From: Arthrobacter sp. ERGS1:01
GTDB lineage: Bacteria > Actinomycetota > Actinomycetes > Actinomycetales > Micrococcaceae
Assembly (NCBI RefSeq): GCF_001281315.1
Contig: NZ_CP012479.1
Coordinates: 1,178,001 to 1,242,000, forward strand
Length of the DNA stretch: 64,000 nt
Reading direction: 5' to 3'
How positions within the stretch are numbered: the first letter of the stretch is position 1; each line of letters begins with the position of its first letter. Shown one piece after another: positions 15,693 through 51,986 of this stretch. The notes beneath the pieces are model-generated. The model was given only the letters and a program-made list of their open reading frames with translations. It ran no database searches and had not been told where the DNA came from. The position numbers and the translations under genes are program-made.

Positions 15693-16157
15693 GCTAAACC
15701 CCCTGGTCACAGGAGGTCGTGTTTGGGTGTTGACGCTGTCAGTACGAGGACTTGTGATTCTGGTGGCGGGTTATGAAGTTTACTGGGGAAGCGGGCGACT
15801 GTTGCGGCGCTAGCACTTCACTCGTCGCCGGGCGATGGCTATGTGCTTGTCCGGGGTGGGGCATCCTATAAGCGTCTTCGTCGAATCCACACAGTCGTCG
15901 AGGGGAGCGGTAAGAATGAGACGCGATATGTTGGCAGGACTAGAATGGCGGGCGCGGGTTGTGCAACGATTTGCTGTCGGCCGTGCTGGCTCGTGACGAC
16001 TGGGAGTTCACTTTGGCGAAGCGGACCCACAACGGCGACCGCAGCAATGTCACAATCGGCCCCGCCAACGCTGAAGCAGCCAGGGAAGCCGTCTTCCTCT
16101 GCCCCAACAGGGGCTCAGCTTCAACGATCACCAAGCCACCAACGCGTGGTTGGCGTC
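15693..16157. other. Non-coding or decayed left margin of segment B
   Basis: There is no convincing gene in this stretch of about 465 bp. A short frame at 15959-16100 (SAVLARDDWEFTLAKR, then THNGDRSNVTIGPANAEAAR) looks protein-like but has no start context, soon loses frame and was not recognised. It may be a decayed gene. No integrase was seen here, unlike the left ends of segments A and C. Confidence 0.4.
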
Positions 16158-16892
16158 CTACAATATCCCGCTTGCCCCCAAGGCTCTGCCGATGGCGAAC
16201 GTAACCGCAAGGGCTAGCGCGCCACCAATCACCAAACGGGTCGCAGAAACAGTCTTGGAGCTTCCGCCGATGGTCGCACTCAACATTCCCGTGAGAACCA
16301 GAGCTACCAATACCGCCACGAACGTCACAGGAATTCTCAGTCCGGACGGCGGTAACAGGATGGCGATGACTGGCAGGATCGCTCCGACGGCAAATGAGGC
16401 CGCGGAAGCGTATGCGGCCTGCCACGGGCTGGCCTCATCACGTTGGTCGATGTTCAGCTCAGCCGAAAGATGAGCTGCGAGGGCGTCCCGGTCGGTCAAC
16501 TCGGCCGCGACCTGCGCGGCCGTCGCTGCGCTCAGGCCCTTGGCCTCGTATAGGCCTGCCAATTCGGCCAGTTCTGCTTTCGGGTCACCAATCAGTTCAC
16601 CTCGCTCCTTATCAACGAGTGCCCGTTGACTGTCGCGTTGGCTGCTGACAGAGACATATTCGCCCAACGCCATCGAAACGGCGCCGCCGACGACGGCGGC
16701 AACCCCAGCGACGAGGATCGGAACCGGAGCGTTGGTCACCCCGGCGACGCCGACCACCGTTGCGGCGACGGACACGATGCCGTCATTGGCGCCCAACACC
16801 CCGGCCCGGAGCCAGTTCAGTCGCTGGGCGATGTTGTGGCCGTGGGGTTCATTGGCGTGAGGGCCGGCAACAAAAGGCACTGACCTGGGCAT
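16158..16892 (-). CDS. VIT1/CCC1-family membrane transporter
   Basis: The protein has 244 residues from the ATG at 16892, which has GAGAAGAAG just upstream. The N-terminal half is typical of the family: LNWLRAGVLGANDGIVSVAA with its metal-site Asp and Asn, then two helices and ALGEYVSVSSQRDSQRA. A soluble helical hairpin rich in Glu and Ala (about 95-150, a metal-binding domain in plant VIT1) is followed by three more helices. The family moves iron or manganese out of the cytoplasm. It is the last gene of the operon running left from phosphoketolase. A role in handling ferrous iron under low oxygen is inferred. Confidence 0.85.
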   Translation of the reverse strand: MPRSVPFVAGPHANEPHGHNIAQRLNWLRAGVLGANDGIVSVAATVVGVAGVTNAPVPILVAGVAAVVGGAVSMALGEYVSVSSQRDSQRALVDKERGELIGDPKAELAELAGLYEAKGLSAATAAQVAAELTDRDALAAHLSAELNIDQRDEASPWQAAYASAASFAVGAILPVIAILLPPSGLRIPVTFVAVLVALVLTGMLSATIGGSSKTVSATRLVIGGALALAVTFAIGRALGASGIL

Positions 16893-16903
16893 TTGTCTTC
16901 TTC

Positions 16904-17857
16904 TCACCGATTCCGGTAGTAGTCGCGCCAGATGAGGCGATGGACGGGGATCTTGCGCGGCAGTGATCGCAGTCCGGGGATGAAGGGAATCAGTGTCAAC
17001 GCGAAGGAGAGCACCAGCATGACGGTCACGACCAGAATGTCCGCGTTCGGTGAGGACTTGAACGGTTCGATCTGGTAGAAAAGGGAGAAAAGCCACAACC
17101 AGGACTGGCCCGGCGTGTTGCCGGTTTCATTCATGACGCCCCATTGGTCGCCTGTCAGGTGGGCCGTGGCGGCCAAGTTCTGGAAATAGCTGCCATCGCC
17201 AAGAAACAAGATGGTGGGCGTGTAGTCCAGGTTGTAGGGCTGCCCGCCATTCTGGAGGACACCGTCAAGGTTTCCGTCGCCGGCCATGCCCAATAGGGCA
17301 CCCGTGAGGGCAGGGACGGGACCGTAGCTGCCGGCGGCCACATGTGCCGGGTCGCCGTTGGGTGCGGCGGCCAGGGCGGTCGAGTAGTTGGCAGTCCATG
17401 TGGTCTGCTCCTGGGCGGTGGCTGCCGTCCAGGTGGCCAAGGCCGCTGGCGGGCGGGCCAGCGTTTTGAGCGGGTTGACGACGAACGCGTTGGCCGTGTC
17501 GACCGGCAGGCGCACCCCGGACATCGCCTGCAAGTCGATGAACCCGAGCTTTTGCGTGGCATCAGGCGTCGCGTTGTACGGGGGGCCGTAGCCTGCCGTG
17601 TCACTTGTCCCGCCCAATTCTGCGGTGGCGGTGGCGACGAAGTCCGACGGCGCCGTCGTTGCCCATGATTTCAGGGTCACCCCGGGATCATCCGGCGAAC
17701 TGAAGATGGCCGATAGGCCGACCACGAGCAGGCCAACAACGACGACGCCGATGGTCAGTTCCTTGAACAGGTCGTACTCGCGGACGCGCCCACGCCATGG
17801 CCTGCCCGCGATATTGTCGGCTTTCCGCCACGACATCGGTGAAGGGGTCGTATTCAT
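16904..17857 (-). CDS. Unrecognised membrane-anchored partner of the cytochrome b subunit
   Basis: The protein has 317 residues. One membrane helix near the N-terminus (about 33-53, ELTIGVVVVGLLVVGLSAIF) and one near the C-terminus (about 272-296) flank a domain of about 215 residues that would face outside. This domain is rich in Ala, Thr, Gly, Asn and Asp, contains no Cys and has no haem CxxCH or Rieske motif. The C-terminal tail is basic (LRSLPRKIPVHRLIWRDYYR). Its start overlaps the cytochrome b stop codon (ATGA), so the two are made in stoichiometry. By position it would replace subunit IV or the cytochrome c1/Rieske partner of a bc-type complex. I do not know its function. Confidence 0.8.
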   Translation of the reverse strand: MNTTPSPMSWRKADNIAGRPWRGRVREYDLFKELTIGVVVVGLLVVGLSAIFSSPDDPGVTLKSWATTAPSDFVATATAELGGTSDTAGYGPPYNATPDATQKLGFIDLQAMSGVRLPVDTANAFVVNPLKTLARPPAALATWTAATAQEQTTWTANYSTALAAAPNGDPAHVAAGSYGPVPALTGALLGMAGDGNLDGVLQNGGQPYNLDYTPTILFLGDGSYFQNLAATAHLTGDQWGVMNETGNTPGQSWLWLFSLFYQIEPFKSSPNADILVVTVMLVLSFALTLIPFIPGLRSLPRKIPVHRLIWRDYYRNR

Positions 17858-18561
17858 GATTGTTTCGCCTCCGTATCAGTTACTCCGGTGGTAATTTCCC
17901 TCAATTGGGCATCGGTCGCGGCCGCATCCAGCGGGGGAACCACTCCGTGGGCCCGAACAAGAAGCACATGCAGCGCGACCACGGCGCCAACAGCCAGGGG
18001 GAGCAACGTGATGTGCCACATGAAGATCTGCCCCAGATTGGCCACGTTGAACCAGGCCCCGACTCCGGTGGCATTCAATGCGTCCTTGGCCTCGAAGGAA
18101 ATCCATTGCGAATCAAAATTGGTTTGCAGAAGGTATCCCGTAAATGCCGTGACGATCGAGACGAGAAACGCCACCATACCGGTGATCCAGGTCAATACCC
18201 GCCCACCTCGCCATGCGGCCATCCAGAACTTGATCCACAGGTGAACCACCATGAATATGAAGAACAGTTCAACACTCCACAGATGTGCACTGTTGACGAA
18301 GTGGCCCAACGACGAGACGTGGTACCACTGAGGCCCGTTCAGGCTCAGGATCAGCCCGGACACGATGATAAAAACCAGCCCGGCAACGGCGCCCATACCG
18401 AACACGTAGGCCCAAGAGGCCACGTAACTGGGTTGGTCCTCCGGTAACAACTTGTCCGGGGGAAGGTGCTTCAAGAACCAGCGGCGTGACTTGCCGGTCC
18501 ATGTGTAGGCCCCGGTCCCCTCAACTTCGGGATCCGACGAAGGCTGTTTGACCGTGCTCAT
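17854..18561 (-). CDS. Cytochrome b N-terminal-domain protein (bc/b6-type)
   Basis: The protein has 235 residues. Four membrane helices are visible. The haem-binding His pattern of cytochrome b/b6 is present: SAHLWSVELFFIFMVVHLW in helix B, and MWHITLLPLAVGAVVALHVL in helix D. The GYLLQTNFDSQWISFE loop lies between helices C and D. There is no C-terminal Qo domain, so it resembles b6 rather than full mitochondrial cytochrome b. Start and stop overlap the neighbours on both sides, within a tight operon. No Rieske iron-sulfur or cytochrome c gene is nearby, so the electron acceptor of this membrane quinone enzyme is unknown. Confidence 0.88.
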   Translation of the reverse strand: MSTVKQPSSDPEVEGTGAYTWTGKSRRWFLKHLPPDKLLPEDQPSYVASWAYVFGMGAVAGLVFIIVSGLILSLNGPQWYHVSSLGHFVNSAHLWSVELFFIFMVVHLWIKFWMAAWRGGRVLTWITGMVAFLVSIVTAFTGYLLQTNFDSQWISFEAKDALNATGVGAWFNVANLGQIFMWHITLLPLAVGAVVALHVLLVRAHGVVPPLDAAATDAQLREITTGVTDTEAKQS

Positions 18562-18725
18562 TTTCTTCCCTTTCCTCCGGGAAACGGCAGTACCAGCGCC
18601 AGGCCAAACAGAACAAGCATCACGACAATAACAATGAAGTTGCCTGCCTGGATGGTGAAGTCGCCCCAGCCGAGGTAGGTGCCTGCATGAATGGCAGGCA
18701 GGACCGCCGCCGTCGCGCTAAACAT
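18558..18725 (-). CDS. Small single-span membrane protein of the cytochrome b operon
   Basis: The protein has 55 residues: a short N-terminal segment MFSATAAVLPAIHAGTYLGW, one membrane helix (about 30-48, NFIVIVVMLVLFGLALVLPF) and a basic end GGKGRK. The ATG at 18725 has AGGA eight bases upstream. It overlaps the end of the stress-protein gene and its stop overlaps the start of the cytochrome b gene (ATGA). It is probably a small structural subunit of that complex, as seen in many respiratory complexes. The longer frame to 18776 has no support. Confidence 0.75.
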   Translation of the reverse strand: MFSATAAVLPAIHAGTYLGWGDFTIQAGNFIVIVVMLVLFGLALVLPFPGGKGRK

Positions 18726-19179
18726 GGGACTTATCCTGTAACGGGTAGTGGACCACCAACACGGGGCAGCTCGCATGGGCTGTACAGGCCGAGCTGACCG
18801 ATCCCATGAGTAGACCTAGGAAGCCGCCAAACCCGCGCCGTCCAAGGACGAGCATCACGGCATTCTTGCTTGCTTCGATGAGCGCCGGCCGCGCGGGCCC
18901 GTGGATCAGCCGGGTGGTCAGAGAATCCGGCCAGTCCAGGCCGACAGCGCGCTCAACCGCGCCGTCGAGGACCTTTTGGGCTTCACCTTCAAATTCAGCT
19001 GTGGAGGTGCCCATCATTGTGGGCGGTTCATACACGCTCGGGTAGTTCCAACACAACACGGCCTCCACCCTGGCTCCCAGGGCTGCAGCTAGGCGCACGG
19101 CCTGACGTAATGCCTCAATCGAGGCATCTGATCCATCGATTCCGACGATCATGACGGGTTTTTCGGGTTGGTCCTTCAT
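18718..19179 (-). CDS. Universal stress protein (UspA family)
   Basis: The protein has 153 residues and a single Usp domain. The N-terminal strand MIVGIDGSDAS carries the first nucleotide-contact Asp, and the ATP-binding motif G-x2-G-x9-G-S is present as GRRGFGGFLGLLMGSVSSA. It is therefore the ATP-binding type. It heads the block of genes translated in tight coupling with cytochrome b, 74 bp downstream of phosphoketolase on the same strand. Family members act in hypoxic survival and are hallmark members of the mycobacterial DosR regulon. A sensing or regulatory role for the cytochrome operon is inferred. Confidence 0.9.
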   Translation of the reverse strand: MKDQPEKPVMIVGIDGSDASIEALRQAVRLAAALGARVEAVLCWNYPSVYEPPTMMGTSTAEFEGEAQKVLDGAVERAVGLDWPDSLTTRLIHGPARPALIEASKNAVMLVLGRRGFGGFLGLLMGSVSSACTAHASCPVLVVHYPLQDKSHV

Positions 19180-19253: not shown

Positions 19254-21758
19254 TCAGGCCTGTGGCGGAGTCCAGACCCAATCGCGGATCTCCGGCAGGT
19301 CCTCTAAATGTTCGTGAATATGGCGTTCGTGCTTGGCGAGCATCAAGGCGCAGTGCTGGGCCAGTTCCTGTGTTCCGTCGAAGTGGCCGCTCACCCGGCT
19401 AAGTGCCTCCATGACCAGGTGGTACCTGCTCATGCCATTGAGGACCACCATGTCGAAGGGGGTGGTTGTCGTGCCCTGTTCGCTGTAGCCCCGGACATGG
19501 AAGCGGCCAGGATTTCTGCGGCCATGCAGGAGTTGGTGGAAAGCCCGGGCGTACCCGTGCCAGGCCACGATCACGTCAGCGTCCGGGTCGAAGAGCTTTT
19601 CGAAGTCGACGTCCGTGAGACCGTGCGGGTGGACATCCTGGGGCGGCAGGACCAGAACGTCCATGACATTGACCACCCGTACTCGTAGTCCGGGCACATA
19701 TCGCTGCAGGAGCCAGGCGGCTGCAAGGGTCTCTTCGGTCGGGACGTCCCCAGCGCAGGCCATGACAATGTCCGGCGTGGAAGTAACGTCCGATTCCTCC
19801 GGGGTGGTGGTTGACGATGTGGTACCGAACGGGGCGCCGTGATAAGTAATCTTCTGGATGGGGGCGTCATCGTTGCCGGCCCAGAGCCAGATGGAGGCGC
19901 CTGCGGCGGCATGACGCCGGGCGTCCTCAAGCGATAGGTACTGCGGGTGGGCCTGTTTGTCCACCACGACCAGGTTCACGTAGTCGTTGCTGAGCAGGAT
20001 GTGCTCGGCCGTGGCCAGCAAGGTGTTGGAATCCGGCGGCAGGTATACCCGAATCACTGACCCGGACAGGGACAGCACCGTGTCAATCAGACCCGGGCCT
20101 TGATGGCTGAAACCGTTGTGGTCATTGCGCCAACACGTGGAGGTGAGCAGGATGTTTAGGCTTGGTACTGGGTACCGCCATGGTAGTTCACGTGCGTGTT
20201 GCAGCCATTTGGCGTGCTGGACTGTCATGGAGGCACTAACCATGGCGAACGCTTCATAGGTGGCGAAAAGACCGTGCCGGCCCGTGAGAAGGTAGCCTTC
20301 CAACCAGCCCTGGCAGAGGTGCTCGGAGAGGACTTCCATGACCCGGCCGTCCGGCGAAATATGGCCATGCCCATCATGCCCATCATGCGCAGGCTCCATC
20401 AGGCATCGGTCGGTAACCTCAAAAACCGCGCCAAGGCGGTTGCTGTTCGTCTCATCTGGGCAGAACAACCGGAATCTCGGATCCTGCGCGGTGTCCGTGT
20501 AGATGTCCCGCAGCATTTCGCCCAGGGGCCTTGTGGTCTCGTGTTTGGTGGATCCAGGGGTTCCAACATCCAGGGCATAGTCTTCCAACGGTCGCAGCGG
20601 TAGCGGCGCCATGCCGGGGCTTCCGTTGGAGCTCGGCGTTGCCCCCATGCGCAGGTGGCCCGTAGGTGCGAGTGCCGCTAGTTCGGGCACCAGTCGTCCG
20701 TTGGCGTCAAAAAGTAGTTCGGGCTTGTAGGAGCGCAGCCACGCCTCCAGTTGGGCCAAGTGTCCGGGGTTTTCCCGAACCCCAGCCAGCGGCACCTGAT
20801 GGGCGCGGAAGGTGCCCTCCACGGGAATGCCGTCTACCACGGCCGGGCCGGTCCAGCCCTTGGGCGTGCGCAGGATGATCGCCGGCCAGCGTTCCGGACC
20901 GTTTGTCCCGTGGTGGCGGGCCTCATCCCGAATTTGGAGGATCCGGGCGTGGGCGTGATCAAGTGCCCGGGCCAGGCTCGCATGGACAAGCCCGGGATCG
21001 TGGCCGGAGACCACCACTGGATCCCAACCGTGGGCCGCCAGCAGCGCCATGACCTGCTCGTCAGTTTGGCGGCCAAGCACTGTTGGCCCGGAAATTTTAT
21101 AGCCGTTGAGGTGCAATATGGGCAGGACCGCCCCGTCCCGGGTGGGGTTGAGGAATGCCGGGGCTTTCCACGCACCTTCCAGGGGACCTGTTTCGGCTTC
21201 CCCGTCGCCCACAACGCAGGCGACAATGAGCCCCGGATTGTCCATTGCGGCCCCCGTGGCATGGGCCAGCGAATAGCCCAGCTCACCCCCTTCGTGGATG
21301 GAGCCTGGAGTGGGTGGCCCCACGTGGCTTGGGATGCCGCCGGGCGTGGAGAACTGCCGAACGAGCCTGCGCAAACCGTCCTTGTCCCGGCCGATGAGGG
21401 GGTAGATCTCGGAGTAGGTACCTTCCAAGTAGAGGTTGGCGACTACTGCCGGACCGCCGTGGCCCGGGCCGGCGACAAAAAGAATCTCGGCCCCGGATTC
21501 TCGAATGAGCCGGTTGAGGTGAACGTAAATTAGTGACAATCCAGGGCTGGTTCCCCAGTGCCCCAAAAGCCGTGGCTTTATGTGGTCCACCGTCAATGGA
21601 ACACGAAGCAGCGCATTCTCCTTCAGGTAGATCTGTGCCACCGTCAGATAGTTGGCGGCGTCCCAGTACCTGTTGAGCAGTTGAAACTCATCGGGCATTG
21701 GGGCGGGAGCGGCACCTTGTTGCTGAGGGCTGCTGATGTGATCAAGCTGGCTCTTCAC
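19254..21758 (-). CDS. xfp: Xylulose-5-phosphate/fructose-6-phosphate phosphoketolase
   Basis: It would split xylulose-5-phosphate (and fructose-6-phosphate) with phosphate, giving acetyl phosphate plus glyceraldehyde-3-phosphate (or erythrose-4-phosphate). The protein has 834 residues from the GTG at 21758, which has GGAG seven bases upstream. Features are GHWGTSPGLSLIYVHLNR with its catalytic His, the thiamine-diphosphate motif GDGEAETGPLEGAWK, HQVPL and the C-terminal transketolase-like region. Acetyl phosphate can yield ATP by substrate-level phosphorylation, which suits low-oxygen life. Its 5' region faces a stress-protein gene and holds a DevR-like box at 21869. The following five genes are probably co-transcribed. 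No acetate kinase lies in the window. Confidence 0.92.
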   Translation of the reverse strand: MKSQLDHISSPQQQGAAPAPMPDEFQLLNRYWDAANYLTVAQIYLKENALLRVPLTVDHIKPRLLGHWGTSPGLSLIYVHLNRLIRESGAEILFVAGPGHGGPAVVANLYLEGTYSEIYPLIGRDKDGLRRLVRQFSTPGGIPSHVGPPTPGSIHEGGELGYSLAHATGAAMDNPGLIVACVVGDGEAETGPLEGAWKAPAFLNPTRDGAVLPILHLNGYKISGPTVLGRQTDEQVMALLAAHGWDPVVVSGHDPGLVHASLARALDHAHARILQIRDEARHHGTNGPERWPAIILRTPKGWTGPAVVDGIPVEGTFRAHQVPLAGVRENPGHLAQLEAWLRSYKPELLFDANGRLVPELAALAPTGHLRMGATPSSNGSPGMAPLPLRPLEDYALDVGTPGSTKHETTRPLGEMLRDIYTDTAQDPRFRLFCPDETNSNRLGAVFEVTDRCLMEPAHDGHDGHGHISPDGRVMEVLSEHLCQGWLEGYLLTGRHGLFATYEAFAMVSASMTVQHAKWLQHARELPWRYPVPSLNILLTSTCWRNDHNGFSHQGPGLIDTVLSLSGSVIRVYLPPDSNTLLATAEHILLSNDYVNLVVVDKQAHPQYLSLEDARRHAAAGASIWLWAGNDDAPIQKITYHGAPFGTTSSTTTPEESDVTSTPDIVMACAGDVPTEETLAAAWLLQRYVPGLRVRVVNVMDVLVLPPQDVHPHGLTDVDFEKLFDPDADVIVAWHGYARAFHQLLHGRRNPGRFHVRGYSEQGTTTTPFDMVVLNGMSRYHLVMEALSRVSGHFDGTQELAQHCALMLAKHERHIHEHLEDLPEIRDWVWTPPQA

Positions 21759-21868
21759 GATCGACTCCGTATGGTTGTGGCCGGGTTTGGGCCCCGTTGG
21801 AAGGCATGTCGACGCAGGCAATCAACGTCCGTTGCTTACAGCCTGACACGATCCGATCCGGACGGTTA

Positions 21869-21882
21869 GGGACCTTGGACCC
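21869..21882. promoter_or_regulatory. DevR/DosR-like box between xfp and the Usp-ATPase operon
   Basis: GGGACCTTGGACCC fits GGGnCnnnnGnCCC completely and matches 11 of 14 positions of the mycobacterial core GGGACTWWAGTCCC. It lies in the shared 5' region, about 110 bp from the xfp start and 130 bp from the divergent stress-protein start, and could serve either. Confidence 0.6.
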
Positions 21883-22012
21883 TGTCCAACACGTGCCCGT
21901 GGCGTTGACCATTGAAAGTGAAAGGTCGGGGTGAGAAGTCCGGCTTCGACGGCGACTTGGGGCTGCCTGACTCGGTGAGCTCATAGGACAAGAACGAAAG
22001 CCGGAAATACCC

Positions 22013-22513
22013 ATGAATGACCAGACAATCCATGAGAGCCCATGCATCGTGGTCGGTGTTGACGGATCGCCGCAGTCGATTCTTGCCCTTGGGTGGGCGC
22101 AGACTTTGGCCCCGACGCTGGGAGCCACCATTACCGCAGTCACGGCGTGGCACTTTGAGGCCTCTTTCGGACCCTATTCGCCGTCGGAATGGGACCCCGA
22201 CGCCGACGCGCAGCAAATCTTACGGGACGCACTGCGTGATGCGTTTGGGGATCAGCTTCCGTCGGGCCTTAGGGCCCAGTCATGTCGTGGCCGGCCCGCC
22301 CAGATTTTGATTGAACAAAGTAAAGACGCCGCCATGCTTGTCGTCGGTTCGCGTGGACACGGCGGCTTCGCTGGCATGTTGCTGGGGTCGGTCAGCTCTG
22401 CCTGTGCAGAGCAGGCGAGCTGTCCGGTTCTGGTGATCCATGCGGCGGCGGCAGGACCGTCACGGAGTGACACGGAAGTCGAGGACATCCGTGAGCCCGC
22501 CGACAACCACTGA
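22013..22513 (+). CDS. Universal stress protein (UspA family)
   Basis: The protein has 166 residues. The N-terminal strand is CIVVGVDGSPQSI, the ATP motif is GSRGHGGFAGMLLGSVSSA, and the final strand is CPVLVIHAA. The C-terminal tail of about 20 residues after the domain is acidic. It is divergent from xfp and overlaps the start of the downstream P-type ATPase gene by about 20 bp, so the two are coupled. In M. tuberculosis a Usp gene likewise sits beside the P-type ATPase CtpF in the DosR regulon; that parallel is from general knowledge of that regulon. Confidence 0.9.
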   Translation: MNDQTIHESPCIVVGVDGSPQSILALGWAQTLAPTLGATITAVTAWHFEASFGPYSPSEWDPDADAQQILRDALRDAFGDQLPSGLRAQSCRGRPAQILIEQSKDAAMLVVGSRGHGGFAGMLLGSVSSACAEQASCPVLVIHAAAAGPSRSDTEVEDIREPADNH

Positions 22514-31079: not shown

Positions 31080-31086
31080 GTGGCCA

Positions 31087-35574: not shown

Positions 35575-35610
35575 AGGACCCAGTGTGCTCAGCGGTGCCG
35601 GAGGTTACTA

Positions 35611-36506: not shown

Positions 36507-36556
36507 GGGGATGCCCACCCTAGCTGCCGAGCGTCGTCGGCCCTTTGGGGAGACGC

Positions 36557-38516: not shown

Positions 38517-38555
38517 GGGGACCTTCTCATTTTGGGTCGGTGTGGCGTGAGGCTG

Positions 38556-40245: not shown

Positions 40246-40252
40246 TCGAAAC

Positions 40253-42763: not shown

Positions 42764-42801
42764 TACGGCTCTCTCCCCGGCGGCGATGAAGAATCCTGAT
42801 C

Positions 42802-42815
42802 TGGAATTTCGACTC
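42802..42815. promoter_or_regulatory. Possible autoregulatory box of the DevR-like gene
   Basis: TGGAATTTCGACTC shares the TTCGACTC half with the boxes at 26846 and (inverted) 35611. The near edge is 39 bp from the ATG. It is a weak match to the mycobacterial core and is proposed by similarity within the island only. Confidence 0.35.
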
Positions 42816-42996
42816 TGTGACGTTTGAGGTGGTACTGCGTCAGTCTTGTTAGTCTTTCGCACGCACCAACCCGCCACAAGGGCCAAACGTCCCGCTGCCG
42901 GCTTGCACGCCACTTCGATCCCAATTGCTTAGGGGACCAGGAGATATCAGGGTGGAGCCTCTTGCATTGCTCGGGTGTCCATGTCAGGGCTAACTG

Positions 42997-43810: not shown

Positions 43811-43824
43811 GGGTGATGTCACCC
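43811..43824. promoter_or_regulatory. Palindromic operator before the OmpR-type regulator gene
   Basis: GGGTGATGTCACCC has perfect 6-bp arms (GGGTGA/TCACCC) and ends 22 bp before the regulator ATG at 43846. It lies 77 bp from the divergent membrane-protein start. It differs from the DevR-like boxes and could be an autoregulatory site. Confidence 0.45.
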
Positions 43825-43845
43825 CGATCGGCGCACAATGAAGGC

Positions 43846-44496
43846 ATGAGGGTTCTAGTCGTCGAGGATCACGTCGTACTTGCTGAGCGGATCGCGGAAG
43901 GGCTGCGCGATGCCGGGATGGCCGCTGATGTGGCGTTCGATGGACGGCAGGCGCTTGATTCAGCAGCGAGTGTCCCCTACGACGTCGTCGTTCTTGATCG
44001 TGATCTGCCCGTGGTCCATGGTGACCGGGTTTGCAAGGAATTGGCGAGCTACACACCCGCTCCAAGGATCATCATGCTCACGGCGTCCGCGGAAGTTCAT
44101 GACAGGATCGACGGATTCGAGCTCGGAGCCGATGACTACCTGTGCAAACCATTTGCCTTCGAGGAATTGACCGCCCGCATCCGGGCCCTGGCCCGGAGGG
44201 AGCCCTCACAACCGGCCATCCTCCACCGTTGGGATCTGACCATAGACCGGGCCCGAATCCGGGTCAGCCGGTCCGGACAGGAAATCCGCCTCACAAAGAA
44301 GGAATTCGCGGTTCTCGCGCACCTCGCGACGGCGAACGGGGCGGTGGTGAGTGCCGAGGAACTCCTCGAGCACGAATGGGATGAAAACATCGACCCTTTC
44401 AGCAACACCGTGGCCGTCACTGTGGCGCGACTGCGAAAGAAACTCGGTGAACCAGTGGTGATTGAAACGGTAGTCGGCAGGGGGTACCGGATGTGA
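43846..44496 (+). CDS. OmpR/PhoB-family response regulator (system 1)
   Basis: The protein has 216 residues. The receiver domain starts MRVLVVEDHVVLAERI, with phospho-acceptor Asp in VVVLDRDLPVVHGD, Thr in IMLTA and Lys in LCKPF. The winged-helix DNA-binding domain ends NTVAVTVARLRKKLGE, VIETVVGRGYRM. The stop codon overlaps the start of the kinase gene by four bases. No strong Shine-Dalgarno is seen. Cluster context suggests it responds to envelope or redox state; the signal is unknown. Confidence 0.9.
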   Translation: MRVLVVEDHVVLAERIAEGLRDAGMAADVAFDGRQALDSAASVPYDVVVLDRDLPVVHGDRVCKELASYTPAPRIIMLTASAEVHDRIDGFELGADDYLCKPFAFEELTARIRALARREPSQPAILHRWDLTIDRARIRVSRSGQEIRLTKKEFAVLAHLATANGAVVSAEELLEHEWDENIDPFSNTVAVTVARLRKKLGEPVVIETVVGRGYRM

Positions 44497-45689
44497 AAGT
44501 ACACATGCTCACGGCCCGCGCCCGGCTCACCGTCTTGTTCACCGTGCTATTTGCCATCGGCGGCTCGATTGTCATCGTGGCCACCTACCTGCTCGTCGCC
44601 CAAAACCTCAGCCTTGGAAGCATTCGCACCCCCGCCACCGACCCAACCTTCATCGAGGATTGTGCCCGGATGAATCCATCCACCGCTGAAACCGATCCCA
44701 CGCTGAAAGCAAAATGCGCGAGCACCCTGGCCAACGGCGTCTCCGCGGCCGCACGCGTCCAGCGCCAAGGCATCCTGGATAACCTCCTGCTCACTTCGAC
44801 ACTCGTCCTCCTGGCCGTAACCATCGTCATCACTTTTCTGGGCTGGTATCTGGCCGGGCGGATCCTGCAGCCAATCCACCAAATGACCGAGGCCGCCCGC
44901 GCCTCCAGTGCTGGCAATCTTCGCGTCCGCTTGGGTATGACGGGGCCACAGGACGAACTGAGGGAACTGGCCGACACGTTTGACGCGTTGCTCGACCGGC
45001 TTGAAGCGGCGTTTGCCCGCCAGCAACAATTCATCGCTAACGCCAGCCATGAACTCCGTACACCCCTGACGGTCATGCGGACCACCCTCGACGTCGTCCT
45101 TGCCAAGAAGGCGCCCACTACGGACGAATTGGCCGCGATGGGTAACGAGGTAAGGGTTGCCGTCGAGCAGGCTGACTCACTGATCGAGACCCTCCTGGCC
45201 CTGGCCCGCAATGAGAGCGGCACCCTGGTCCGCGAGCCACTGGACCTTTCCGGCATAGCCGATAAAGTCATAAGCACGGCAAGCTGGGGAAACCTCCGCC
45301 CTACGCGTTCGCTACAGCCAGCACCTGCCGCGGGAGATCCGGTACTGATCGAGCGGCTTGTCGCCAACCTCATCGACAACGCCATCCGCTACAACAAACC
45401 CGACGGCACCGTTCAGATTACGACACTCTCACAGGACAGAATGGCCGTCCTGCATGTCACCAACACCGGACCGCTTATCGGCTCCGACCAGCTGGATGAC
45501 CTCTTCAACCCGTTCACCCGCATCCACCAACGCGTCGGTAGTGGAGGCCACGGGCTGGGCCTGACGCTCGTAAAGTCCATTGCCACAACACATGGCGGCA
45601 ACGTCACGGCCGTCGCTTGCCCGGACGGCGGAATGGCAATCAGCGTCGAATTGCCGGCTCGTCAGCCCGCCATAGACGGCAGTCGGTGA
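44493..45689 (+). CDS. Membrane sensor histidine kinase (system 1)
   Basis: The protein has 398 residues. Two membrane helices (about 12-34 and 104-125) enclose an extracytoplasmic domain of about 70 residues with two Cys that could pair (FIEDCARM, LKAKCAST). A HAMP domain follows, then HisKA with FIANASHELRTPLTVMRTT and the ATPase domain with LIDNAIRYNKPD and GSGGHGLGLTLVKSI. The GTG start overlaps the regulator stop codon. The periplasmic Cys pair hints at a thiol or redox signal, which is inference only. Confidence 0.9.
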   Translation: MKVHMLTARARLTVLFTVLFAIGGSIVIVATYLLVAQNLSLGSIRTPATDPTFIEDCARMNPSTAETDPTLKAKCASTLANGVSAAARVQRQGILDNLLLTSTLVLLAVTIVITFLGWYLAGRILQPIHQMTEAARASSAGNLRVRLGMTGPQDELRELADTFDALLDRLEAAFARQQQFIANASHELRTPLTVMRTTLDVVLAKKAPTTDELAAMGNEVRVAVEQADSLIETLLALARNESGTLVREPLDLSGIADKVISTASWGNLRPTRSLQPAPAAGDPVLIERLVANLIDNAIRYNKPDGTVQITTLSQDRMAVLHVTNTGPLIGSDQLDDLFNPFTRIHQRVGSGGHGLGLTLVKSIATTHGGNVTAVACPDGGMAISVELPARQPAIDGSR

Positions 45690-46475: not shown

Positions 46476-47225
46476 TTACTTTGCGGGCGCCAGCCAGCGC
46501 CTCAGATCTCCAGCATCGATGAAAGTGCCGTTCTCAGTTTGTGCCAGAACGCTGCAATCGAATCTTTCAGCAGCCCACCGTGGCCCTTTCGAACCCATCG
46601 CGAAGACAGTCGTTGCGAGAACATCTGCGGTGGTCAGATCTGATGCGATCACCGAGACGCTTGAGAATCCGTGGGCGGTGCATCCCGTGCGCCCGTCAAT
46701 GATGTGCCCACCCCGCTCGTAGGTGGCGGAAGTTGCGACCGCCATATCGTCAAGAGCAAGCACCGCCATCATGTGTTTGGGGGACTGCGGAGATCGAATC
46801 CCCACATTCCATGCCTTGCCCGGTTCAAAGGTCCCGGCGGCGATCACGTCTCCTCCGGCATTGATGCAAAAATTTGCCAGTCCCTGTGCCCGTAGCCTGT
46901 CGGCCGCCCCTTGGGCAGCCCAGCCCTTGACGATGCCGTTGAGGTCCCACTGGCCCGAAGCGGTGTGTAGTGAAAACACTCCACCGGAAAGTGCTGCAAA
47001 TTGGGATGCGCGTTCATGCACCTCCATGAACAACTCGCCCATGGTCTCAAGGGTGAGCTCGAAGCGGTTAAGCCGGCTAAGTTCGCTGTTCGGAAGGTAG
47101 GGGCTGAAGATGTCATCGGCCTCGTGCAGGATTGCGAAGGCTTCAGCCGCTGCAACGTGGTGGTCCCCGGCATCACGGATGTCAATGGACATTGGAATGC
47201 CCATGACGGTATCCAAGAACCTCAT
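46476..47225 (-). CDS. apbE: FAD:protein FMN transferase (ApbE-like)
   Basis: It would attach FMN to a Thr of the partner flavoprotein. The protein has 249 residues. The start is MRFLDTVMGIPMSIDI, followed by DIFSPYLPNSELSRLN, GQWDLNGIVKGWAAQ, CINAGGDVIAAG and the Mg-binding end with ADVLATTVFAMGS. No lipoprotein signal is seen, which is common in Actinobacteria. Its ATG overlaps by one base the stop of the FMN-binding protein gene, its obvious substrate. It is the last gene of a three-gene redox operon. Confidence 0.9.
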   Translation of the reverse strand: MRFLDTVMGIPMSIDIRDAGDHHVAAAEAFAILHEADDIFSPYLPNSELSRLNRFELTLETMGELFMEVHERASQFAALSGGVFSLHTASGQWDLNGIVKGWAAQGAADRLRAQGLANFCINAGGDVIAAGTFEPGKAWNVGIRSPQSPKHMMAVLALDDMAVATSATYERGGHIIDGRTGCTAHGFSSVSVIASDLTTADVLATTVFAMGSKGPRWAAERFDCSVLAQTENGTFIDAGDLRRWLAPAK

Positions 47226-47749
47226 CAGGGTAACCTATCGATGGCCGACTGGACGGACTGCAGATAGCCGTCGGAGGTGTAGGTGCCGCCGCTGACGGTG
47301 TTTACGGCAACCGACTGGGATGAGAGGATCTCTTGCTCGAGGACGGGAGGCACCGTTTGGGCAACCCGCTGGTCGTAATTGTTGGAATTGGGAACCTGCA
47401 ATACGGTCACACCGGTAATCTTCTTTCCACTGAAGCTGACCGATACTTGCACGTCGCCATAGGGGGTGCTTTCCGTGGCGCCCGTGATCGTCGTGGCAGC
47501 CGCCACTGCGCTTGGGCTCGTCGTTGCTGGCGAGGCACTGGGCGACGGACTGGACTTAGTGGCTGGCGATGCGACATTGCCTTGTGTCGACGTCGTGCCC
47601 GAGGAACCTGGCGAAACCGGCGCGCTCGAGAGTGAGGTGGTGACGGCCGAATGTTCCGAGCCCATGTATAGGCGTAGCCCGAACGTTGCGCCGATGACGA
47701 CGAAGATCGCCAAAAAGAGAGCTGTACCCTTCCACTTTCCGTTCTTCAT
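47225..47749 (-). CDS. Membrane-anchored FMN-binding domain protein
   Basis: The protein has 174 residues. An N-terminal membrane anchor (about 8-28) is followed by a Ser/Thr/Pro-rich linker (about 35-85), then an FMN-binding domain of the NqrC/RnfG type. The attachment motif SGGTYTS (with GYLQSVQSAI after it) provides the Thr that ApbE would flavinylate. The domain would lie outside the membrane and relay electrons. The gene sits between the ferric-reductase-like flavoprotein and apbE on one strand, forming an extracytoplasmic electron-transfer operon. Confidence 0.88.
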   Translation of the reverse strand: MKNGKWKGTALFLAIFVVIGATFGLRLYMGSEHSAVTTSLSSAPVSPGSSGTTSTQGNVASPATKSSPSPSASPATTSPSAVAAATTITGATESTPYGDVQVSVSFSGKKITGVTVLQVPNSNNYDQRVAQTVPPVLEQEILSSQSVAVNTVSGGTYTSDGYLQSVQSAIDRLP

Positions 47750-47761
47750 CCTTACCCTTGC

Positions 47762-49120
47762 CTATCCCATGCTCAATATTTCGCGGTGAATCAGTCGCTT
47801 GGAAATGCGAAGTTCTGACAGTGAGTTCTCAACGGTCAGTCCCATCCCCTCAGGGCCGCAGATGTAAACCTCGCGTTCTGAGATGTCTTTGACCAGCCAC
47901 TTAAGGCCCCGTGGGTCCAAGGGATCGTGTCCCAGTTCAGCTCGGCTCCCAACGACGGTGTGCAAAACCAAGGGATGAATGGCTCGCAGTTCCGCCTCAA
48001 GGGCGAGCCGGTCATGGCTGGTACTTCTGTACACCATCACCACATTGCGTCCTTCGTTGACAAGGCTCTCGGCGAGGGCACGAATTGGGCCGATTCCGGC
48101 ACCACCGGCGATCAGCAGCACTTTGTGCAAGTGGCTTGTCTCGGGGGTGAAATGGCCGAAAGGTCCTTCGGCGAAGACCACGGTTCCGGGCTTAAGGTGA
48201 GGCACGCGGGAACTGTGGTCGCCGAGCGCGCCAACGGTGATTCTCATCAGGCCGGCTGAAGGCAATCGTGAAAGGGAGAATGGGTGGGCGGTCAGCATAT
48301 GGCCAACGGTGACGAATCGAAAAATCATGAATTGGCCCGCACGTACGCCGAGCTCGTCCAGATGTGGGCCTGCCAGCCAGATGCTGGTGATTCCGTTGCC
48401 CTCATTCACAACGTGGTGGACCATCATGTGGTGTCGCCACGCAGCTGCTGCAGGGAGAATGAACCGCCAGGTGAGGATGGCGGAGGCAGTGGCGAAATAG
48501 AGAATGATCCAGAGTGCACGATTGGCGGGGTCGTTGACGAAGTGGACCCCTGCGCTCAGCTCGTGGAAGAACGTCAGGAAGATCGCACCATAGGCCGTGA
48601 CGTGGAGCCAGTACCAGGCTTCGTAGGAAATCCTTCCGCGGGGGATCCTGGCGCTGCTGATGCCGACGACGAAGAACAGCAAGGTACCAATTAGTGCGGT
48701 GAGCATGTCTGGGTAGGAGGTGAAGACCAGCCATGTTGCCCCCCACGGAGTGCCGGAGGTGAGTAGTTGCACCCCGAGGATCATGAGCAGCACATGGCTG
48801 ATGATGAGGAAAAGGACGGTGCTGCCCAGCGTCCTGTGCCAGCTGACCAAACGGTCCATTCCAACGGCATGCTCGAACCAGGGAATGCGGGCGATCAACA
48901 AAACCTGCGCGCAAACCAGAAACGCACCTACCATTCCGCTGAGCTCACCCAGGGAGGTTGCCGTGGACGCCGGGCTCAAGGTCAGCAGGGACGGGGCGGC
49001 AAACCACCATGCGCCAAGGACACCAACCACGCCTGCGGCTATCAGTATGCGAAGAAGCAGCCCGGACCTGCCGAGAGCGCGCTTTCGCAGCACAGGAGTG
49101 CGTGCAGTCATTGGTGCCAT
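47762..49120 (-). CDS. Ferric-reductase-like transmembrane flavoprotein
   Basis: The protein has about 452 residues. Six membrane helices with haem-ligand His residues (LVSWHRTLG, LIISHVLLM, YWLHVTAYG, FLTFFHELSAG) form a ferric-reductase/NOX-like domain. The cytoplasmic half is a ferredoxin reductase: AHPFSLSRLPS for FAD, IAGGAGIGPIRALAE for NAD(P)H and YICGPEGMGLTVE. It would carry electrons from NAD(P)H across the membrane to the FMN protein encoded downstream. Start options are 49138, 49120 and 49111; none has a Shine-Dalgarno. The real acceptor outside the cell is unknown. Confidence 0.85.
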   Translation of the reverse strand: MAPMTARTPVLRKRALGRSGLLLRILIAAGVVGVLGAWWFAAPSLLTLSPASTATSLGELSGMVGAFLVCAQVLLIARIPWFEHAVGMDRLVSWHRTLGSTVLFLIISHVLLMILGVQLLTSGTPWGATWLVFTSYPDMLTALIGTLLFFVVGISSARIPRGRISYEAWYWLHVTAYGAIFLTFFHELSAGVHFVNDPANRALWIILYFATASAILTWRFILPAAAAWRHHMMVHHVVNEGNGITSIWLAGPHLDELGVRAGQFMIFRFVTVGHMLTAHPFSLSRLPSAGLMRITVGALGDHSSRVPHLKPGTVVFAEGPFGHFTPETSHLHKVLLIAGGAGIGPIRALAESLVNEGRNVVMVYRSTSHDRLALEAELRAIHPLVLHTVVGSRAELGHDPLDPRGLKWLVKDISEREVYICGPEGMGLTVENSLSELRISKRLIHREILSMG

Positions 49121-49550
49121 ATCACAGAGATTACGCACCCAATCTTAGAGGAATCTTAGTCAGCATCCCCCAACCAGGTGTCGGAACAGACTACTCACCC
49201 ACCATTTCTTCCGAGAGTTATCAACCACCCGGTGGGGTCAATCCAACGACCCTTGAGGAGGCAAGGAGGACACAAACCATGCCAGGGATTCCGCCACAAC
49301 CCTGGAAACTGTCGGCTTGGCGTAGTCAAAGAACCGAAAGTGGTCATAGCGCGCCGTCGCCGGGACCCTATGCGTGCTTTGCGCATCTGGTAATCTGCCA
49401 ATTTCCTGGGCAATGGATGGTGGCGTTCACGAGGTCGATCATGCGAGAGCTGGATGTGTTCCTTGCTGTAAGGCTGCGAGGCCTGTCTTGGTGATTGCTT
49501 GGGCGCCCTCCCCAACTGCGCGATAGTTGACGACGCCTATACTTCACTTC
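49121..49550. other. 430-bp intergenic region between the redox operon and two-component system 2
   Basis: It must hold the divergent promoters for the ferric-reductase operon and the regulator at 49551. Open frames in both strands lack ribosome sites. No clear DevR-like box was seen here. Confidence 0.4.
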
Positions 49551-50219
49551 ATGGCTGTTGAACCGAGTGTGCTGGTCGTGGAGGATGATGCCGCACTGGC
49601 CTCGATGCTGGCCGAGTTGTTAGTTGGTGAAGGCTACGACGTCGTGGTGGCAAGTGACGGGCAGCGGGCACTTCATGAGGGACTGAGCGGGCATTTTGAC
49701 GTGATGGTGATGGACCGGGGGCTGCCGGCCATTGAGGGTTTGGACGTCCTGGAGCGCTTGCGCCGCAAGGGAATCACTACGCCTGCACTTATTCTCTCGG
49801 CGCTGAGCAATCCTGCGGACCGTGTGGAAGGACTGGACCGGGGCGCGGAGGACTATTTGGGCAAGCCCTTTGACATTGATGAACTGCTGGCCCGGATCCG
49901 CTCCCTCCTGCGCCGGCACGTCGATACCTCCACCAAGGTGCGGGTTCCCGGAGGGACCCTCGATGTCGGCTCGCGAACGGTGATGCTCGACGTCGAAGGC
50001 CGGGTGGTCCTGTCCGAGCGGGAATGTGAATTCCTGGAACACCTCGCGCGCCGCCCACAGCAGGTGTTTACCAGGACCGGCCTGCTTGAGTCGGTCTTTG
50101 CCGATGCCGACGACGGCGGCGTGGTGGACACCTACGTGCACTACCTGCGCAAGAAGTTGGGCCGGTCGTGCGTCTTGACGGTGCGGGGACTGGGATACGT
50201 CCTGGGGCCGCTGGGATGA
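49551..50219 (+). CDS. OmpR/PhoB-family response regulator (system 2)
   Basis: The protein has 222 residues from the ATG at 49551. The receiver starts SVLVVEDDAALASML, with phospho-acceptor in VMVMDRGLPAIEG, Ser in ILSALSN and Lys in LGKPF. The C-terminal winged helix ends VVDTYVHYLRKKLG, LTVRGLGYVLG. The stop codon overlaps the kinase ATG (ATGA). Placed next to the FMN-transfer operon it is its likely regulator. Confidence 0.9.
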   Translation: MAVEPSVLVVEDDAALASMLAELLVGEGYDVVVASDGQRALHEGLSGHFDVMVMDRGLPAIEGLDVLERLRRKGITTPALILSALSNPADRVEGLDRGAEDYLGKPFDIDELLARIRSLLRRHVDTSTKVRVPGGTLDVGSRTVMLDVEGRVVLSERECEFLEHLARRPQQVFTRTGLLESVFADADDGGVVDTYVHYLRKKLGRSCVLTVRGLGYVLGPLG

Positions 50220-51454
50220 ACACGAGGGACGCGGCAGAACTCCGACGCGCTGTGGTCCGATTGTCACTGCAATTTACTGCGCTGATAGTGGTTTTGTTGG
50301 CTTTGATGGGCGCGTTGCTCTACTCGATCGTCGCCGCCAGCTCGGCAGAGGCCATGAACAAATCATTGACCAACGCGACACAAGTAGATTCGCCGCGTGA
50401 TGCACCCGCGGGCGTCTATGTGGCCATCTCCGATGACGGACGCCTGAGCGCCTCGCCGGTGATGCCGCCCGGGCTTCCAGACACGGACACGATGAACCGC
50501 GTGGCAGCCTCACACTCGGATGAACAGGGAGACTTTTCCGTCGCCGGGCGAACGTACCAGGTGCTGACGATCTTTCGCGGAGACAGCGTAGTCCAGGCCG
50601 CGGTAGACACCCACGAGGGCCGCGAAGCGCTGAAAAGGCTCGTGTGGGCCATGGTCGTTGCCGTCGCGACGGCGGCCTTGCTGGCGGCAGCATCCTCGGT
50701 GTGGATGGCCAGGCGGGCCATGCGTCCCCTGGTGGAGAGCTTGGCGTTACAGCGACGATTTGTGGCCGATGCCAGCCACGAGCTTCGGACGCCGCTCACC
50801 TTGCTCAGCACCAGGGCTCAACTGCTGCGCCGAAAACTGGCCGGAACCGGGCTCCCGCCGGAAGGGGTGTCCACCGAGGTGGCCCGAATTGTCGAGGACT
50901 CAAAAATGCTCACGGGAATCTTGGATGACTTGCTGATTTCAGCCGACCCCCGGGGCGCCGTGGACCACACGGCCGTCGATCTGGTGGGCGTTGCCAACAG
51001 TGCGGTGGACTTGGCAAGCCCGCAGGCCCTGAAGCAGGCCATCAGGCTGGACTCCGTCGGAGCCGGGGGCCCGGTCAAGGTACTGGGTTCCCCCGTGGCG
51101 CTCCTGCGTGTCTTCACCTCCCTGATTTCCAACGCCCTGGATCACGCCGAGACAGCAGTCAGCGTCGAAGTCGGCGTTCGCGGCATGGAGGCGCGCATTG
51201 TCGTTACCGACGACGGGCCTGGCTTTGCCCCTGGAACTGAGAGCCGGGTCTTTGAGAGGTTCTCCTCGGCGCGCCCTGGAGCCGGCGGCTCCGGCGGCAC
51301 CCGCCACTATGGGCTGGGGCTGGCCCTTGTGGCGGAGATCGTGGCATTGCACAACGGCAAAATCATGGTCGAACCGATCGCGCCCGGCGCGGGTGCCGCC
51401 GTCGTGGTCGTCCTGCCGGTGCTGCGGAAGCGAATAGCTGATGTTAATCCCTGA
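50216..51454 (+). CDS. Membrane sensor histidine kinase (system 2)
   Basis: The protein has 412 residues. Helices (about 19-41 and 140-160) flank a sensor loop of about 95 residues. HisKA shows FVADASHELRTPLTLLSTR; the ATPase domain shows LISNALDHAETAVSV, DDGPGFAPGTES and HYGLGLALVAEIV. The HAMP linker is short. The ATG at 50216 overlaps the regulator stop codon. The signal is unknown. Confidence 0.9.
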   Translation: MNTRDAAELRRAVVRLSLQFTALIVVLLALMGALLYSIVAASSAEAMNKSLTNATQVDSPRDAPAGVYVAISDDGRLSASPVMPPGLPDTDTMNRVAASHSDEQGDFSVAGRTYQVLTIFRGDSVVQAAVDTHEGREALKRLVWAMVVAVATAALLAAASSVWMARRAMRPLVESLALQRRFVADASHELRTPLTLLSTRAQLLRRKLAGTGLPPEGVSTEVARIVEDSKMLTGILDDLLISADPRGAVDHTAVDLVGVANSAVDLASPQALKQAIRLDSVGAGGPVKVLGSPVALLRVFTSLISNALDHAETAVSVEVGVRGMEARIVVTDDGPGFAPGTESRVFERFSSARPGAGGSGGTRHYGLGLALVAEIVALHNGKIMVEPIAPGAGAAVVVVLPVLRKRIADVNP

Positions 51455-51526
51455 CTAAGGAAGGGCAAAGAATCCGTGGGGATGATGGGGGGGAGTACCT
51501 CACCAGCACACGGAAAGGAGCGGGTC

Positions 51527-51637
51527 ATGGCCACAAGACGCAGCGGCAGGAAGGTCGCGGTGGGCATTACCCCCAACAATTACTGCTTGTGCGGTGAGTT
51601 GGGCGATGTGACCCGGGATGGTTCTGCCCATGAGTGA
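51527..51637 (+). CDS. Possible 36-residue small protein
   Basis: The frame ATG to TGA has a strong Shine-Dalgarno, GGAAAGGAG, six bases before the ATG, unusually good for this window. The protein begins MATRRSGRKVAVGITPNN and contains a CxC pair (YCLCGE). No family was recognised. It lies 73 bp after kinase 2. A second short frame (51653-51748, FYVVDHVAYLEQIH) follows; together they may be a decayed or programmed-frameshift gene of about 70 residues. Confidence 0.35.
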   Translation: MATRRSGRKVAVGITPNNYCLCGELGDVTRDGSAHE

Positions 51638-51884
51638 TGGCAGCACACACCAATGCTCAAAGGTGATGGGCGCATTTGGTTCTACGTTGTAGACCACGTG
51701 GCCTACCTGGAACAGATTCATACGGATCATCCCAATGAGAACAAATAGCCGTGCCGGCAGGAGACGATCCCTTATCTGTCTGTCAACGCCGTTAGGTGGC
51801 CGGTAAATCGAGCTTTTGCGGGATTTGAGCCCGGATCCTGTCTTAGCTAGGGCCTGTTGACAGTGTCAACACATTTCCGTTCAG

Positions 51885-51986
51885 ACTGATTCGGATTGCG
51901 CCGTACTGGGCTGTACTTCCGGAGCAGTCTGCTATTTCCCTTTGATTGCAAGGGCTGAAAGCTGGTTCGAATCCCACCTTGGGCAC
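51885..51986 (+). repeat. Element right end with att core (copy 3 of 5)
   Basis: About 80 bp resembling the 15590 and 55930 flanks (GCGCCGTACTGGGC, then TTGCAAGGGCTGA) end in the 21-bp tRNA-Leu core at 51966-51986. It is followed by the same hairpin, spacer and integrase remnant as after tRNA-Leu, so it is the joint between segments B and C. Confidence 0.8.

Follow-up and report, generated by a model that had tools for sequence, protein, structure and literature searches.

We report here that a 36-kb segment (positions 15693–51986) of the Arthrobacter genome under study (G000; 4.94 Mb) carries a DevS-like kinase and a DevR-like response regulator packed together with their likely targets downstream of a tRNA-Leu gene. 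The window analysed is a stretch of 64,000 nucleotides (C3:1178001–1242000), whose numbering is used throughout. We favour, at a probability of about 0.7, the view that the segment contains an old DevR/OsdR-type regulon cluster located in a tRNA-Leu(CAA) integration hotspot, where repackaging and probable exchange in modules have shaped it, rather than one intact delivery. Low-oxygen dormancy is best known from mycobacteria, and in Mycobacterium tuberculosis, where Usp genes are targets of DosR, the DosR regulon is scattered over the chromosome, unlike the packed segment of G000. Here a sensor, a regulator and boxes of the same kind are found in one place with likely targets, in soil bacteria and in a mobile-DNA hotspot, which offers a natural system for defining the core targets of the response and for learning if a regulon, complete with its binding sites, is exchangeable as a module. 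Comparisons were made across a genus set of 23 genomes, in which relatives are coded G001 onward, and across 32 named Micrococcaceae loci (≥20 kb each), taken from the best 80 DevS matches, four of which probably correspond to genomes also present in the 23-genome set; the named relatives are Arthrobacter and other Micrococcaceae.

Sensor, regulator and gene content of the segment

The two regulatory proteins are encoded about 9 kb apart:

31109–32986, + strand: DevS-type kinase (GAF-HisKA_3-HATPase; Pfam and structure-chain matches)
42065–42913, − strand: DevR-type response regulator with GerE (Pfam and DevR structure match)

The GAF domain of the kinase matched solved DevS GAF domains with E values of 1.6e-48 to 1.9e-47, as well as the chain 2vzw (entitled probable histidine kinase; E 5.5e-50), which we take to be DosT. 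It keeps the DevS stretches HPPM and LYLT, residues that presumably have haem roles. The regulator matched full-length DevR (3c3w) with an E value of 1.4e-61 and keeps LAEKTVKNYVS of the DevR recognition helix. Judged by these matches, which bear out the DevS- and DevR-like identities proposed in the initial annotation, the kinase is predicted to be a haem-GAF sensor of the DevS/DosT type and the regulator a NarL-type, DevR-like protein with the same recognition helix. Besides this pair, the initial annotation had listed six Usp domains, three Pyridox_ox_2 proteins, phosphoketolase, ATPase, slipin, ABC1 kinase, alcohol dehydrogenase, decarboxylase and membrane redox enzymes, and all were recovered by a Pfam scan that covered 32 open reading frames (ORFs) of the segment. 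Those to the left of and around the regulators are as follows (matches from Pfam):

16158–17096, − strand: VIT1-family protein (PF01988)
16904–18561, − strand: cytochrome b/b6-like gene (17854–18561) and a neighbour without Pfam match (16904–17857)
18718–19179, − strand: Usp protein 1 (PF00582)
19254–21821, − strand: phosphoketolase XFP (PF09364/PF03894/PF09363)
22013–22513, + strand: Usp protein 2
22440–25136, + strand: P-type cation (Mg-like) ATPase, whose true start may be further in
25603–26691, − strand: LPG_synthase_TM membrane protein (PF03706)
27013–27930, + strand: slipin/Band_7 protein (PF01145)
27999–28868, + strand: two-domain Usp protein
28931–30010, − strand: zinc alcohol dehydrogenase (ADH)
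30050–30514, − strand: Pyridox_ox_2 protein 1
30609–31295, − strand: Pyridox_ox_2 protein 3, divergent from devS, with the true start probably downstream
33059–33481, + strand: Pyridox_ox_2 protein 2
33475–35115, − strand: ABC1 kinase-like protein
35119–36213, both strands: divergent Usp proteins 4 (−) and 5 (+)
36600–40034, − strand: PLP amino-acid decarboxylase and amino-acid permease
40235–42034, + strand: molybdopterin oxidoreductase with a cytochrome b561-like part

The five Usp proteins of the segment hold 6 of the 17 Usp domains of the genome, and all three of the Pyridox_ox_2 matches of the genome fall within these 36 kb.

Candidate DevR/OsdR-type boxes

A strict scan of the segment with what we take to be the M. 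tuberculosis DosR consensus yielded 1 site against 1.03 expected at 15 of 20 matches and was dropped, whereas at 14 of 20 there were 10 sites against 6.0 expected, the largest of 30 shuffles giving 9. That consensus was replaced by the OsdR consensus of Streptomyces coelicolor, given as AGGGCCGATCGGCCCT in the passages of PMC5069765 on the box, with which a looser scan of the segment found 15 sites against 8.7 expected, and then by a matrix built from 29 sites, all of them from relatives, with the other 164 kb as background. The table legend available from the Rhodococcus equi study (PMC2947987) gives the box as NNNGGGHCNWWNGNCCCBNN, and the DosR motif in mycobacteria is treated in passages of PMC3388012.

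The matrix scan against background, a check proposed in the initial annotation, revealed an enrichment of candidate boxes in the segment: 6 at ≥10 bits against 1.33 expected (Poisson p ~0.0025), 8 at ≥9 bits against 2.22 (p 0.0021) and 10 at ≥8 bits against 2.66 (p 0.0004). These ten predicted sites are:

21868–21883, + strand: AGGGACCTTGGACCCT, DevR/OsdR-type candidate box between XFP and Usp2 (24.8 bits)
22263–22278, + strand: candidate box ahead of the P-type ATPase, inside Usp2 (13.9 bits)
26790–26862, + strand: two candidate boxes in the LPG_synthase_TM/slipin gap (12.4 and 12.1 bits)
30548–30567: candidate box at Pyridox_ox_2 protein 1 (9.3 bits)
31113–31132, + strand: candidate box where devS and Pyridox_ox_2 diverge, within the longest devS ORF and before its likely start (15.7 bits)
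35565: weak candidate box at Usp4/Usp5 (8.3 bits)
40177: candidate box at the molybdopterin oxidoreductase (9.3 bits)
42877–42896: candidate box at the 5′ end of the longest devR ORF (11.0 bits)
51847: tenth candidate box (≥8 bits), beyond the last gene

Palindromic boxes are thereby predicted both at target promoters and at those of the regulators themselves, and the one at 21868 is the single exact occurrence of AGGGNCNWWNGNCCCT in the whole G000 genome. Nine of the ten fall within 21.8–42.9 kb, and the matrix scan found no box of at least 8 bits upstream of the genes in 43.8–51.5 kb; because the boxes are mostly confined to the former interval, the regulon should not be taken to include all genes of the segment.

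The same pattern of boxes extends to the relatives. Across 11 of their regions, 72 of the 191 rows upstream of cluster genes had at least 9 of the 10 fixed positions, a redundant count, several queries matching the same Usp gene, that corresponds to 32 distinct sites; the control, upstream of other ORFs in 12 regions, gave 3 of 459. In the 23 genomes, 17 of the 29 exact AGGGNCNWWNGNCCCT sites lie no more than 35 kb from DevS on the same contig, against 1 of the 31 sites of the reversed-pattern control. One exact palindrome of the DevR type was also observed on the second contig of G001 (C2:90775–90790). It is hardly credible, in our judgement, that the stress genes are grouped without DevR control and that the boxes are due to chance or belong to another palindrome-binding regulator. 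The behaviour of the M. tuberculosis consensus, with only mild enrichment at 14 of 20 and none at 15 of 20, and the modest scores of several boxes would suit such a reading, which is opposed by the genus-wide positional enrichment over the reversed pattern, by the XFP promoter box, which has 9 or 10 of the 10 fixed positions in 6 of 7 relatives whose XFP row was scored, and by a palindrome of the same type as those in the passages on OsdR (PMC5069765) and R. equi (PMC2947987).

Regulator families, box enrichment and box positions can be read from the sequence; oxygen sensing, phosphotransfer from DevS to DevR and induction of the targets are steps that we infer. The DevS-like haem-GAF kinase would report the loss of oxygen, or NO/CO, to the DevR-like regulator, which would bind AGGGnC-nnnn-GnCCCT boxes and induce the Usp, Pyridox_ox_2, phosphoketolase, cation ATPase and slipin genes, as well as devS and devR.

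The tRNA-Leu attachment array and the borders of the segment

The segment belongs to an array of attachment (att) sites that begins at the tRNA gene:

1266–1347, + strand: tRNA-Leu(CAA) (ARAGORN), whose final 23 nt (1325–1347) form the attachment core repeated downstream
15590–15692, + strand: right arm and att copy 2, left border of the dormancy segment (att 15670–15692, 3 mismatches; 55.1 bits, outside the training set)
15727–15736, + strand: GTGTTGACGC, candidate left arm, 1 mismatch to GTGTTGACAC, a motif beside many att copies
51884–51986, + strand: right arm and att copy 3, right border (att 51964–51986, 0 mismatches; 78.7 bits, in the training set)
55930–56032, + strand: right arm and att copy 4 (84.8 bits, in the training set)
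57350–57363, + strand: partial att copy 5, adjoining an insertion sequence and missed by the arm-plus-att matrix

The 23-nt tRNA end appears again at 15670, 51964, 56010, 64564, 67626 and 132966, always in the same orientation, the last three being beyond the window end and given in window coordinates. Including the tRNA and the partial copy at 57350, the array comprises 8 copies in a single orientation over ~132 kb. CCCACCTTGGGCAC is exact at 1334, 15679, 51973 and 56019, and it has 1 mismatch at 57350 and 2 at 46028, within the segment; these 6 sites at ≤2 mismatches compare with 0.94 expected, and 0 of 100 shuffles reached 6. The limits drawn in the initial annotation (15693–51965) are the inner edges of copies 2 and 3, and the tRNA-Leu att borders that it claimed hold, arm-plus-att copies at 15670 and 51964 placing direct repeats of the tRNA 3′ end in the same orientation at both ends.

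The arm-plus-att matrix (53 nt) was built from 16 clear copies and returned 29 matches at ≥8 bits, namely the 16 training copies, 9 others (29.7–66.5 bits) and 4 weak ones (8.0–22.5 bits; in G021, G002, G001 and G003) that were not taken as borders. The 25 clear matches span 29.7–84.8 bits, and the largest null score was 5.5 (reversed sequence, 15 assemblies). Five right arms in G000 align over ~103 nt with a mean column identity of 70%. GTGTTGACAC, a motif chosen post hoc after inspecting the right sides of att copies, occurs at ≤1 mismatch within 110 nt to the right of att in 15 of 39 copies, including that at 15670, against 0.36% of 3600 random windows. The arm-plus-att scores and the GTGTTGACAC-type motif at 15670 make both ends of the segment element-like.

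Terminator-like hairpins, of about three types by eye, directly follow the 3′ side of att copies (right sides, 12 regions), as if every type of element supplied the tRNA gene with a terminator of its own. At C3:2082737–2082759, on the − strand and ~0.8 Mb past the array, lies another att copy that has a right arm; no tRNA was found in the 8 kb read around it, and its arm side shows first a Usp gene and then an MFS transporter. This copy may be a junction displaced from the array, or it may mark a second insertion.

Two broken integrases flank the segment:

1573–2421, + strand: tyrosine integrase at the left end of the first array segment, broken by 2 stops within the match (63% to the 392-aa integrase of G005)
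52231–52868, + strand: second broken integrase, with the match split over two frames

All the close integrase matches in G000 are broken or fragments (57–73% identity), and distant integrases with open frames occur elsewhere in the genome (25–29% identity). No integrase match was found within 15693–51986, the broken copies lying only in neighbouring segments, and the 32 segment ORFs scanned with Pfam include no relaxase or conjugation genes. In G005 a 392-aa integrase with an open frame directly follows the same tRNA-Leu, with 11.3 kb to the next att copy; the cargo of this element (L127 1412–11967), a STAND NTPase, whose Mrr-like part is below the cut-off, and TIR-domain genes, looks like anti-phage defence. 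A family of tyrosine-integrase elements would have targeted the last 23 nt of the tRNA and built the same-orientation att array, and in G000 the cluster lies within a single 36-kb segment that is bounded by att copies and element-like at either end.

The cluster as a probable resident of the hotspot

A DevS ortholog (≥53% identity) is present in 19 of the 23 genus genomes, the other four (G004, G012, G014 and G016) having distant kinases only. Pyridox_ox_2 genes number 3–7 in each genome with DevS and 0, 0, 1 and 1 in the four without, from all of which XFP is absent. Split DevS copies, in two reading frames, were noticed in G003 (C1:2979323–2980917) and G006 (C1:2337429–2339023). Among the 32 Micrococcaceae loci, DevR was found no more than 10 kb from DevS in 30, a Usp1 match in 24, Pyridox_ox_2 in 21, ADH in 18 (15 at ≥71% identity) and an arm-plus-att copy in 1. 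The packed arrangement, which the initial annotation had presented as distinctive, is not special to G000. Gene content and order of the cluster differ among relatives, and devR and devS, 9 kb apart in G000, are convergent neighbours in 10 of 11 relatives' regions.

The position of the cluster is conserved, since DevS lies downstream of tRNA-Leu on the same strand, at 5.4–199.5 kb, in 11 of the 11 genomes with both on one contig. Nine regions could be read unbroken from the tRNA to the cluster, and in three of them an arm-plus-att copy occurs on both sides: G000, G010 (149845 to 179603) and G003 (92454 to 121283). In G011 the cluster lies between the tRNA and a distal att copy at 68372. The survey of relatives proposed in the initial annotation had a mixed outcome: borders on both sides in three of nine regions agree with the island that it described, and the conserved place of a gene present in 19 of 23 genomes does not. 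No shared right flank was detected between the genes of 200 kb of G000 and 11 other stretches (43–220 kb), and therefore an empty site could not be drawn. The conserved position downstream of the tRNA, together with the borders enclosing some regions, makes the cluster look like an old resident of the hotspot that lies within att-bounded segments in some species.

We regard as unlikely a purely resident history, in which the cluster was inherited vertically, tRNA-directed elements merely accreted at its flanks and loss among old paralogs left the two DevS types. Its constant place after the same tRNA-Leu would follow from such a history, as would the first Usp gene of G008, ~0.2 kb after the tRNA, the clustered arrangement throughout Micrococcaceae and the two clusters of G003, with both DevS types. 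Insertion at the tRNA should, however, confine att copies to the stretch from tRNA to cluster, and distal copies occur in G000, G003, G010 and G011; the left end of the segment bears a motif typical of att right sides; the tree conflict described below extends to DevR; and the order relative to a group of aromatic-acid genes differs, these being on the tRNA side of the cluster in G001 and beyond it in G000 and G010. Since tRNA insertion places new DNA next to the tRNA, the distal copies suggest capture or arrival of the cluster through the att system, at least in those four genomes.

Probable exchange among species

In the gyrB tree, G000 groups with G010 and G004 (100/100). The DevS of G000 is only 58% identical to that of G010, and its type occurs also in G001, G003, G005, G007, G008, G011, G018 and G019 (78–83% identity), species that do not form one gyrB clade (p-AU 5e-07). 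The pairing of G000 with G010 was rejected for DevS (p-AU 5e-45), DevR (0.0016), ADH (0.02) and the ATPase (0.035), and the nearest relative varies by gene, being G011 for the ATPase (89%) and G008 for ADH (87%). Either exchange between species or the loss of old paralogs would account for this conflict. Because the genes are nearest to different relatives and G002 appears to have a mixed kinase and regulator pair, exchange by modules fits better than that of one whole unit.

Several results weigh against a cluster moved in this way and controlled by DevR. For the trees, 13 of the 22 rows of gyrB were flagged for base make-up and G020 is missing; the p values for ADH and the ATPase are modest and uncorrected for five genes; XFP shows no conflict with gyrB, G000 and G010 being already together, with weak support (41/56); and the G002 kinase was placed with type II (93/88, long branch) while its regulator is type I-like. 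Ancient paralogy with loss could be the source of the two DevS types, both of which G003 holds. XFP is absent also from G001 and G006, which have DevS. At the borders, G002, G008, G019 and G021 have no distal arm-plus-att copy in the ~26–129 kb read past the cluster, that of G001 is weak (14.2 bits), and the base composition of the segment is not unlike its host surroundings, with a G+C content of 0.58–0.63 in the segment, 0.61–0.66 to its right and 0.55–0.60 in the segment to its left. As to the boxes, the training sites were selected by consensus match, and exact palindromes are no more numerous genome-wide than the reversed pattern (29 against 31), only their positions being enriched.

The initial annotation had envisaged the whole regulon moving as a unit. 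Transfer as such gains from the conflict of DevS and DevR with gyrB; passage in one piece fits less well with the XFP tree and with the differing affinities of the genes. We hold it to be quite improbable that the 36-kb segment arrived whole as a self-contained mobile regulon with its own integrase, regulator and targets, even if both ends carry att copies and element-like sequence, G010 and G003 too have an enclosed cluster, all the Pyridox_ox_2 matches of the genome and 6 of its 17 Usp domains lie inside, and DevS and XFP are jointly absent, with 0 or 1 Pyridox_ox_2, from 4 of 23 genomes. The segment holds no integrase match, its right third lacks boxes upstream of genes, and the nearest ATPase and ADH come from different species. 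On the reading of an old cluster exchanged in modules, which we prefer, the cluster would probably be ancestral in the group at the hotspot, and its pieces would have been repackaged, duplicated and probably exchanged among related species, via att-bounded segments or homologous recombination. We propose only tentatively the broader idea of a portable regulon, whose sensor, regulator, targets and boxes would be kept together by repeated capture, duplication and passing on as att-bounded cassettes by the tRNA-Leu elements of Arthrobacter, hypoxia survival in the genus being gained or lost largely as a module; XFP is a looser member of it (absent from 2 of the 19 DevS genomes).

Other genes of the segment and its surroundings

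The right third of the segment contains, according to Pfam:

43813–45689, + strand: OmpR-type regulator and kinase (no predicted box ≥8 bits upstream)
46476–49138, − strand: ApbE, FMN_bind and Ferric_reduct proteins
49527–51454, + strand: second OmpR-type regulator and kinase

The ApbE/FMN_bind/ferric-reductase-like genes between the two OmpR-type pairs (46476–51454) are a candidate flavin electron-transfer module, weakly matched in the G010 cluster region (33–45% identity). In the Usp5/decarboxylase gap, a 22-nt inverted repeat (36551–36600; 91% complementary, 6-nt loop) is terminator-like. Between att copies 4 and 5, an insertion sequence with an rve transposase domain (56033–57363) shows perfect 22-nt inverted repeats (56039–56060 and 57289–57310). 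The aromatic-acid catabolic genes, at 57582–63831, constitute another array segment with counterparts in G001, G010 and G016, read by eye as a candidate gentisate pathway.

Comparison with known systems

The pair of G000 resembles DosT/DevS-DevR (DosR) of M. tuberculosis in its DevS-type GAF domain and in a DevR with the same recognition helix. Horizontal gain of hypoxia-responsive genes is described for M. tuberculosis in the abstract of PMC5720804, there concerning the molybdenum-cofactor pathway and not a sensor with its regulator and targets. Already in print, in the accessible passages, are a core regulon around osdR in Streptomyces (PMC5069765) and DosR homologs in Rhodococcus (PMC2947987); we found no report in the open-licence literature of a DevR regulon within tRNA-att borders, or of the Arthrobacter cluster. 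On plasmids, DevS relatives appear in 73 records, of which 23 are from Streptomyces and 19 from Rhodococcus, none reaching 60% identity, and no annotated Usp cluster was seen in the 2 plasmid DevS regions examined. A conjugative plasmid of Arthrobacter sp. U41 (NZ_CP015734.1) carries a DevS 55% identical to ours with an adjacent response regulator (107557–109966), but no Usp, Pyridox_ox_2 or phosphoketolase is annotated within 20 kb in the incomplete PLSDB table, so that it apparently carries the regulators alone.

A close parallel is OsdK/OsdR of S. coelicolor, as far as the passages of PMC5069765 describe it: a DevS/DevR-type pair with many Usp genes nearby, a palindromic AGGGCCGATCGGCCCT box and a core regulon near the regulator, with Usp genes and other OsdR targets around osdR. 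There, however, osdR and osdK form an operon, and tRNA-att borders are not mentioned in the passages concerned. R. equi shares the box type and is likewise a non-mycobacterial actinobacterium, whereas its boxes and transcription units are given as a supplementary table and the passages of PMC2947987 concerned name no island. The borders recall, by topic, actinobacterial tRNA-directed elements and tandem accretion, with integrase, tRNA target and tandem repeats (PMC3218068 and PMC9513070); in contrast to these, no conjugation genes were found among the 32 scanned ORFs of the G000 segment, and its cargo is a two-component regulon with its own predicted boxes.

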